From: an uncultured Pelagibacteraceae bacterium
GTDB taxonomy: Bacteria; Pseudomonadota; Alphaproteobacteria; Pelagibacterales; Pelagibacteraceae
Reading direction: 5' to 3'
DNA: 64,000 bases
Assembly: GCA_902557385.1 (NCBI GenBank)
Contig: CACDZF010000001.1
Span: 1 to 64,000 of the forward strand
This document shows positions 2,385-3,808 of this stretch, piece by piece; positions within the stretch are counted from its first letter, which is position 1, and every line of letters starts with the position of its first letter. A program made the position numbers and the translations under genes. Below the pieces are notes generated by a model that was not told the origin of the DNA, did no database searches, and saw nothing but the letters and a program-made list of their open reading frames with translations.

Positions 2385-2427
2385 AAACTAATCATACGAA
2401 AAATTTTTTCGAAGGTTTAAAAATTAG

Positions 2428-2475
2428 TTGTGCACCTTGAATTATCAAAAGCACAATATAATAAAAACAGAGGGG
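2428..2475 (+). ncRNA. SAM-V-like riboswitch overlapping the metY ribosome binding site
   Basis: UUGUGC (2428-2433) pairs perfectly with GCACAA (2451-2456) around a 17-base loop. The loop CCUU (2435-2438) can pair with GAGG (2470-2473), part of the metY Shine-Dalgarno, across an A-rich connector (2457-2469). This H-type pseudoknot with an A-rich third strand is the architecture of SAM-II/SAM-V aptamers. SAM-V is known upstream of metY in Pelagibacter, which is the basis for the class name. SAM binding would hide the ribosome site and lower MetY synthesis. A competing pairing, AAGGU (2412-2416) with ACCUU (2434-2438), would break the pseudoknot. The structure was found by eye; no covariance model was run. 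Confidence 0.75.
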
Positions 2476-2479
2476 AAAA

Positions 2480-3808
2480 ATGACAAAAACTATTAAAAAT
2501 CCAGAAACAATTGCTTTGCACGGTGGTGATTATAGAAGTGATCCCGCAACTACAGCTGTAGCTGTGCCACTTTACAGAACAACATCTTACCAATTTAAAG
2601 ATACTGAAAATGCTGCAAATCTTTTTGCATTAAAGGAATTCGGAAATATTTATACAAGAATAATGAATCCAACTAACGATGTATTAGAAAAAAGAGTTGC
2701 TGCTTTAGAAGGCGGTCTCGCTTGCGTAACTGTTGGTTCAGGACAAGCAGCTTCTACATTTGCTATTATGAATGTATGTCAATCAGGTGACAACTTTATA
2801 AGTTCAACGGATTTATATGGTGGAACTGTCAATTTATTTACACATACATTAAAAAAACTTGGTATTGAATGTAGATATGCTGATCCTTCAGATCCAAAAA
2901 ATTTTGAAAAACTTATAGATGAAAAAACAAGATGTTTTTATGCAGAAACATTACCAAACCCATATTTAAGAGTTTTTCCTATACAAGAAGTTGCTGATAT
3001 CGGAAAAAAACATAATATACCTTTAATTATGGACAACACTGCAGCGCCAGTTATTTGTAAACCAATTGAACATGGGGCAGCAGTAGTGGTTCATTCATTA
3101 ACTAAATTTATTGGTGGTCATGGAACAGTTATTGGTGGATGTCTAGTTGATGGTGGTAATTTTGATTGGACCGCTAATGCAAAAAGGCAACCAAATTTTA
3201 ACGAACCTGATGCAAGTTATGGAGGTGCTGTTTGGGGAGAAGTTGTTCCTCAGTTAACAGGTGCCAATGTAGCTTTTGCTGTCAGAGCTAGAGTTTGTTT
3301 ATTAAGAGATCTAGGTGCACCTTTAGCTCCAGACAATGCTTGGGGAATTATCCAAGGTTTAGAAACTGCCCCACTTAGAATGAAACAACATTGTTCAAAT
3401 GCAGAGAAGGTCGTTGATTTTCTAAAAAAACATAAAAGTATCGATAGAGTAATCTACCCAACTTTGCATGAAGGTGAAATTGCCACTAGATCAAAAAAAT
3501 ATCTTAAAGGTGGTAATGGTGCACTAGTTGGCATTGAAGTTAAAGGTGGAGTTGAGGCTGGTAAGAAATTTATAGAGTCCTTAAAAATGTTTTACCATGT
3601 CGCAAATATTGGTGATGCAAGAAGTTTAGCAATTCATCCAGCTACAACAACTCACAGTCAATTAACACCAGAAGAATTACTAGCTGCTGGGGTAACCCCA
3701 GGTTATGTTAGATTGTCAATTGGTATTGAGCATCCTGATGATATCATTGAAGATTTAAACCAAGCGTTAACATCTTCGGGCAAACCAAGTCTTAAGGCTG
3801 TAAGTTAG
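2480..3808 (+). CDS. metY: O-acetylhomoserine sulfhydrylase (O-acetylhomoserine aminocarboxypropyltransferase)
   Basis: PLP enzyme of the Cys/Met metabolism family that makes homocysteine from O-acetylhomoserine and sulfide, giving direct sulfur assimilation into methionine. The 442 residues match family length. The PLP lysine is K209 in HSLTKFIGGHG; the N-terminal ETIALHGG and YTRIMNPT motifs and the C-terminal HPATTTHSQL motif are present. The strong Shine-Dalgarno GAGGGG sits 4 bases before the ATG and is also a strand of the riboswitch pseudoknot. The 3' end overlaps convergent ctaA by 17 bases. Confidence 0.95.
   Translation: MTKTIKNPETIALHGGDYRSDPATTAVAVPLYRTTSYQFKDTENAANLFALKEFGNIYTRIMNPTNDVLEKRVAALEGGLACVTVGSGQAASTFAIMNVCQSGDNFISSTDLYGGTVNLFTHTLKKLGIECRYADPSDPKNFEKLIDEKTRCFYAETLPNPYLRVFPIQEVADIGKKHNIPLIMDNTAAPVICKPIEHGAAVVVHSLTKFIGGHGTVIGGCLVDGGNFDWTANAKRQPNFNEPDASYGGAVWGEVVPQLTGANVAFAVRARVCLLRDLGAPLAPDNAWGIIQGLETAPLRMKQHCSNAEKVVDFLKKHKSIDRVIYPTLHEGEIATRSKKYLKGGNGALVGIEVKGGVEAGKKFIESLKMFYHVANIGDARSLAIHPATTTHSQLTPEELLAAGVTPGYVRLSIGIEHPDDIIEDLNQALTSSGKPSLKAVS

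Follow-up and report, generated by a model that had tools for sequence, protein, structure and literature searches.

A SAM-V-derived pseudoknot upstream of metY in a Pelagibacter-group genome, probably no longer responsive to SAM

Does the metY leader of this Pelagibacter-group genome hold a working SAM-V riboswitch, a switch enlarged by a competing strand outside the aptamer, or a derivative of SAM-V that no longer answers to SAM? The question is raised by a 64,000-nucleotide stretch of DNA (hereafter the window) from a genome of 959,851 bases in 39 contigs (G000; 81% complete), in which rplM on the minus strand and metY on the plus strand, both matched by curated models, flank an intergenic stretch at 2266–2479. 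The same rplM(−)/metY(+) arrangement is tabulated for the SAM-V element of Ca. P. ubique in PMC2704228. The downstream gene (2480–3808, plus strand; ATG at 2480, read from the sequence) belongs to the O-acetylhomoserine aminocarboxypropyltransferase family (TIGR01326, 576.4 bits, cut-off 495.1; scores against equivalog models were under their cut-offs among the matches listed), which places the element before a methionine-synthesis gene. For comparison, one genome (G026) was taken as Ca. P. ubique HTCC1062, as three of its four RF01826 places match the positions of the three SAM-V regions that PMC2704228 gives for that strain; the fourth match (G026:C1:1126163-1126227, minus strand, 57.6 bits) lies outside those three tabulated regions.

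At Rfam gathering thresholds, the sole match in the window was a tRNA elsewhere. At relaxed thresholds, the SAM-V model (RF01826) matched 2403–2467 with 24.0 bits, under its cut-off of 41 (E = 0.062 for the 245 nucleotides at 2266–2510, where only two further matches reached E ≤ 10, both from unrelated families). The Rfam comparison proposed in the first-pass annotation of this locus thus gives a SAM-V match, but with a score below the cut-off, and SAM-II (RF01726, RF00521) is absent among the three matches up to E = 10 in 2266–2510. Searched across the whole genome, the leader was the best of three weak RF01826 matches (E = 0.058), a score that is not decisive alone because 9 of 14 control genomes also matched at E ≤ 10, all of them under the cut-off. 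Among 197 family genomes, 125 had RF01826 matches at E ≤ 0.1 and 119 over the cut-off, compared with 0 of 14 controls. The geometry by itself is only mildly unusual: an H-type knot with five P1 and six P2 Watson–Crick pairs, and with P1b contiguous with P2a, arose in 231 of 20,000 dinucleotide shuffles of 2390–2479 and 45 times (27 + 18) on the two strands of the window. Nested folding of 2380–2490 was more stable than that of shuffles (z = −2.75), with 2 of 200 shuffles folding as stably. Judged by the RF01826 match, the gene arrangement and the aligned element in relatives, the leader is a SAM-V homologue, and the proposal of a SAM-V-related pseudoknot before metY stands.

Upstream of the element, a probable metY promoter can be read by eye at 2360–2389 on the plus strand (−35 TTGCAC at 2360–2365; −10 within TATAATAAACT at 2379–2389), and it is kept in relatives both with and without the aptamer. 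It is followed by an inverted repeat, also read by eye, that would form a hairpin probably near the 5′ end of the mRNA (H1; ACGAAAAATTTTTTCG, 2396–2411, plus strand). H1-type repeats were seen by eye in leaders L162–L165, L242 and L245, and as ACGAA..TTCGT in L246; within the clade of the window, H1 is present also where P2 (below) is gone. As a DNA operator of a regulon H1 was rejected, since the pattern ACGAAA-N0-6-TTTCG has a single match in the 81% complete genome, H1 itself, against 8 forward and 15 reverse matches for the backward control pattern; a single-copy pattern makes a regulon unlikely. In the window, nested folding at minimum energy pairs the U-rich arm of H1 with GGGAAAAAU around the start codon instead, possibly a further competing pairing.

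The pairings in the element itself lie where the first-pass annotation had put them (UUGUGC 2428–2433 with GCACAA 2451–2456; AAGGU 2412–2416 with ACCUU 2434–2438; GAGG 2470–2473); their assigned roles are another matter. It had taken AAGGU for an undescribed anti-pseudoknot strand outside the aptamer. In the SAM-V crystal structure as described in PMC6061858, P1 is a four-pair helix joining the 5′ end to the strand following P2, the third strand is G5–G11, U47 pairs with the adenine of SAM, and A41 and A42 form A-minor contacts to P1. The metY leader of G026 agrees with 26 of 26 residue names given there, with P1 formed by AGGC (1–4) and GCCU (25–28). By alignment, AAGGU:ACCUU of the window is this same P1, one pair longer (AGGU:ACCU at 2413–2416:2434–2437, plus A2412:U2438; five Watson–Crick pairs), and UUGUGC:GCACAA is P2. 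The supposed additional strand is therefore part of the published SAM-V pseudoknot, and the helix it forms is one already described in PMC6061858.

Read 5′ to 3′ on the plus strand, the P1 5′ strand (2412–2416; nucleotides 1–4 of the crystal-structure RNA with one extra A) is followed by L1, or the third strand (UUAAAAAUUAG, 2417–2427, placed by the alignment of 71 leaders), and by the P2 5′ strand (2428–2433) and P1 3′ strand (2434–2438), both placed by alignment and covariation, with U2438 pairing in P1 or P3. The P3 hairpin (2438–2447) pairs UGA at 2438–2440 with UCA at 2445–2447 (alignment columns 31–33 with 39–41), AAA at 2448–2450 is the equivalent of A40–A42 (from the alignment and PMC6061858), and the P2 3′ strand occupies 2451–2456. 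An A/U-rich linker (2457–2469, by spacing count) leads to the Shine–Dalgarno sequence GAGGGG (2470–2475), which contains the GAGG named above. P1, P2 with its P3 stem-loop and the adenines before the P2 3′ strand are accordingly all present.

These assignments were examined in an alignment of 71 distinct leaders (parser score of at least 21.5) from a set of 210, in which some genomes occur twice and 20 leaders gave no parse; L053, L055, L074, L088, L200 and L201 fall outside the alignment. P1 was paired in 284 of 284 cells, P2 in 99.1% and P3 in 83.1%, percentages that are biased upward because the parser demands pairing in P1 and lower P2. One P1 position was C–G in 40 leaders, U–A in 24 and U–G in 7, and another was A–U in 59, G–C in 6 and G–U in 6. 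Over all helices, 95.7% of 923 cells were paired and the covariation score was 0.324, values reached by 0 of 500 shuffles in each case; one of the five measures, further pair types, showed no excess, its value being reached by 397 of 500 shuffles as well. When the leaders were anchored without reference to P1, this helix was fully paired in a fixed register in 66 of 68; L074 and L088, the exceptions, have a loop two nucleotides longer and pair in a shifted register. AAGGU does covary with ACCUU, as had been suggested as a check, but the covariation supports the known aptamer helix and no added strand.

The ligand pocket and the spacing to the ribosome-binding site, by contrast with the helices, depart from SAM-V. 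The U47 column is T in 67 of the 71 leaders and A in four (the window, L163, L242 and L246), in which P2 reads GCACAA with no bulge; in the window its 3′ strand is uninterrupted, with no U47 between 2454 and 2455. In the third strand of the window, where the alignment places one gap, the U8 and U9 columns are kept and the U10 and G11 columns are both A, so that the UUUG of the class is altered. Among the U47-less leaders, three share the A at U10 and all four the A at G11; the latter also occurs in two U47-bearing leaders. The Shine–Dalgarno sequence does not directly follow P2: the first RGGR motif lies 14 nucleotides beyond P2 in the window, 10 in L163, 10 in L242 and 4 in L246, as against 2–3 in 66 of 67 U47-bearing leaders (the exception, L185, reads UGGAG). 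In PMC6061858, isocytidine at U47 left no detectable SAM binding in the metY and bhmT RNAs (section 14), and most SAM-V triplex nucleotides are given as more than 97% conserved (section 13). Because U47 is absent and isocytidine at that position abolished detectable binding, the window leader is unlikely to bind SAM in the known mode.

The leader thus shares with the SAM-V of HTCC1062 metY (RF01826; PMC2704228, PMC6061858) its place between rplM and metY, helices P1–P3, the adenines before P2 and the strand order of P1, and differs from it in lacking the bulged U47, in an altered third strand, in a Shine–Dalgarno sequence 14 rather than 2–3 nucleotides away and in a score under the cut-off. 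Since U47, third strand, spacing and score all fall short, we describe the leader as SAM-V-derived rather than as a SAM-V riboswitch; the SAM off/on switch that had been ascribed to it is doubtful in this copy, where U47 is absent and the ribosome-binding site is unusually far from P2. Titles and abstract openings in the literature surveyed make no mention of a SAM-V element without U47, and an earlier report is possible.

The altered element is nevertheless well conserved when set against the four-fold sites of metY. Over the 29 nucleotides of P2–P1–P3–P2, the window and L163 are identical at 29 of 29 positions (28 of 29 in a longer alignment), L246 shares 27 with the window, and L242 shares 24 in pairwise comparison (23 in the longer alignment); probabilities attached to these identities treat sites as independent, for a stretch picked after inspection. 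Four-fold sites of metY are only 43–50% identical among the four, that is, saturated, a lenient yardstick because other intergenic parts are also well conserved (64 of 79 positions identical between the window and L163 in the part near rplM). One P1 pair is U–A in the window and C–G in L246. Even among the four variants the scaffold differs: L242, with its 24 identities, has lost the two upper P2 pairs.

In a metY tree built by a quick method without bootstrap (101 of 109 rows, 8 duplicates left out), the window falls in a nine-row clade (SH-aLRT 99) made up of the U47-less window, L163 and L242, hairpin leaders without P2 (L162, L164, L165 and L245) and the element-free L005 and L244. The next branch is L247, without the element (92), followed by L246 (84); with L247 in this position, the U47-less variant could have arisen just once only if the element was lost at L247, the direction of change being read from the nesting of the tree. 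No RF01826 match at E ≤ 0.1 was found in G083. The leaders without P2 (L162, L164, L165 and L245) carry AGG..CCU hairpins, of which the CCU could alternatively pair with the Shine–Dalgarno sequence.

Further U47-less members were sought by pattern in 399 genomes of the genus, 166 of which had a match. Six of the matches listed have A after GCAC: the window, G219, G450, a G481 copy before a pstS-like gene, G303:C13 and G551:C39, the last two of which lie inside a protein-coding frame and were dropped. A search of relatives, the genus part of which repeats genomes of the 399-genome search, gave 27 rows from 24 of 394 genomes (the window, G219, G345:C6 and 24 rows from class-only relatives). In viral contigs, 21 stretches were found, 7 of which passed a loose test for P1; these 7 come from contigs of 52–68% G+C, and by eye none resembles a SAM-V leader. 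A second U47-less group of metY leaders (L053 in G093, L055 in G164, L200 and L201) shows mismatches in P1 or P2 by eye and looks like independent decay. The G481 copy (L304; G481:C39:4893-4919) has a SAM-V core with an altered third strand and U47 changed to A, and it too looks like decay; part of the pstS-like gene behind it matches PF12849 over the cut-off and TIGR02136 under it, and G481 carries this core again at C7, there with U47.

We consider the element to be most likely a ligand-independent 5′ UTR pseudoknot derived from SAM-V, with a scaffold under selection and a SAM response that has probably been lost, a reading to which we assign a probability of roughly one half. P1, P2, P3 and the adenines before P2 are retained, U47 is lost, the third strand is changed and the Shine–Dalgarno sequence lies 14 nucleotides beyond P2; conservation of the P2–P1–P3 stretch past synonymous-site saturation in the window, L163 and L246 suggests selection. 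Without U47 the known way of holding SAM would be impossible, and with the ribosome-binding site at 14 nucleotides the short Shine–Dalgarno-covering helix P2a (considered here by its description only) would be unable to form as described. Ligand independence is preferred because of these two features, the missing U47 and a ribosome-binding site too distant for P2a. The pseudoknot might, for instance, affect mRNA stability or the access of ribosomes, its role as a SAM off-switch gone, with metX as a possible remaining site of SAM control over the pathway. Several points count against this reading: such strong conservation is equally expected of a working switch with a new ligand, and only four sequences carry the variant; in addition, L242 has a reduced scaffold, other intergenic parts are conserved too, further pair types do not exceed shuffles, and a single origin demands a loss at L247.

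The first of these points leads to the alternative that survives best, an unlikely one all the same, in which the pseudoknot is a variant riboswitch with a changed ligand, its pocket re-formed without U47 around a compound made or consumed in methionine or sulfur metabolism. It would account for a constrained scaffold despite the absence of U47, and the SAM-I variants that sense spermidine (PMC10853860) already illustrate a SAM aptamer scaffold that no longer accepts SAM, although those belong to another class and their ligand is known. Its reach is reduced by variation among the four members in the pocket-lining third strand and upper P2, by the distance of the ribosome-binding site from P2 in three of the four and by the want of a candidate ligand. 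The corresponding larger proposal, an orphan riboswitch class that arose from SAM-V in one Pelagibacter lineage by removal of U47 from a selected pseudoknot and formation of a pocket for a new metabolite, leaving SAM sensing to the SAM-II-like element at metX, we hold to be unlikely to the same degree.

Somewhat less credible is a SAM-V off-switch that still responds to SAM, with a neighbouring base or a shifted register replacing U47 and the distant ribosome-binding site still covered. The place before metY and the retention of P1, P2, P3 and the U8, U9 and U20 columns agree with it, as does the report in PMC5069961 that bhmT, mmuM and metY, behind confirmed SAM riboswitches, rise under sulfur limitation in Ca. 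P. ubique. The isocytidine result (PMC6061858) speaks against it, as do the accompanying changes at U10 and G11 (tempered for G11 by the two U47-bearing leaders with A), a score of 24.0 bits where the cut-off is 41, and a ribosome-binding motif 14 nucleotides from P2.

More doubtful again is a functionless, decaying remnant, midway from SAM-V to no riboswitch. Hairpin-only and empty leaders among members of the clade, the helix mismatches seen by eye in the second U47-less group (L053, L055, L200 and L201) and the G481 copy before the pstS-like gene, with third strand and U47 lost, are what such a course might leave behind; identities of 29/29 and 27/29 at saturating divergence, and the exchange of both bases of one P1 pair between the window (U–A) and L246 (C–G), are hard to reconcile with it.

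What remains is the pairing between the loop and the Shine–Dalgarno sequence, which the first-pass annotation had made the pseudoknot. CCUU:GAGG consists of three Watson–Crick pairs and one U–G wobble and, as the annotation rightly said, excludes AAGGU:ACCUU, because both use CCUU. The pairing lies outside the published fold, and over the alignment it was formed in 81.7% of cells, with both sides changed in 2 of 284 and the outermost pair failing in 31 of 71 leaders, counts in which the Shine–Dalgarno columns of the four U47-less rows are out of register. In their own register all four offer a CCUU match, with wobbles, at the Shine–Dalgarno region, a match that is expected because CCU is complementary to Shine–Dalgarno sequences generally. 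As isolated duplexes in the window, P1 has −3.4 and loop:Shine–Dalgarno −4.0 to −4.2 kcal/mol, the reverse of the canonical sequences (loop:Shine–Dalgarno −3.3, P1 −4.2); duplex energy alone cannot choose between the two in the window. As the main fold, CCUU:GAGG with an anti-strand is rejected on the identity of P1, its covariation and the 66 of 68 leaders in register. An explicit switch outside the aptamer, in which AAGGU competes with a CCUU:GAGG pairing that hides the ribosome-binding site, is thus very improbable: mutual exclusivity, the CCUU match in four of four U47-less leaders, the slight preference of the window duplex energies and the AGG..CCU hairpins left in some relatives that lost P2 weigh little against an AAGGU:ACCUU that is aptamer P1, fully paired in nearly every leader, and a partner pairing that seldom changes on both sides, often fails at its last pair and would be expected of any CCU.

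For the pathway as a whole, metX of this genome is preceded by a SAM-II-like element (L348 1501–1575, minus strand; G000:C2:110431-110505), with 31.1 bits to RF01726 (cut-off 44) and 25.9 bits to RF00521 (cut-off 36, E = 3.6 × 10−4), where the RF00521 search also gave matches at E ≤ 1 in 10 of 14 control genomes, all of them under the cut-off. The gene that follows scores 516 bits with the MetX model NF001209, over its cut-off of 331, and metX may be where SAM still controls the pathway. SAM-II (RF01726, RF00521) has the H-type pseudoknot principle in common with the window element (PMC6061858, section 19), which by contrast gives no match to it up to E = 10.

The kind of element, SAM-V, and its helix P1 were already known, and the reading of the AAGGU strand is corrected to P1; the copy here is a derived, probably SAM-blind variant with an apparently constrained scaffold. 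A natural series for the loss or re-use of a riboswitch in a streamlined genome would be offered by a lineage in which the scaffold persists while the key ligand base is gone, together with sister lineages that dropped the element.
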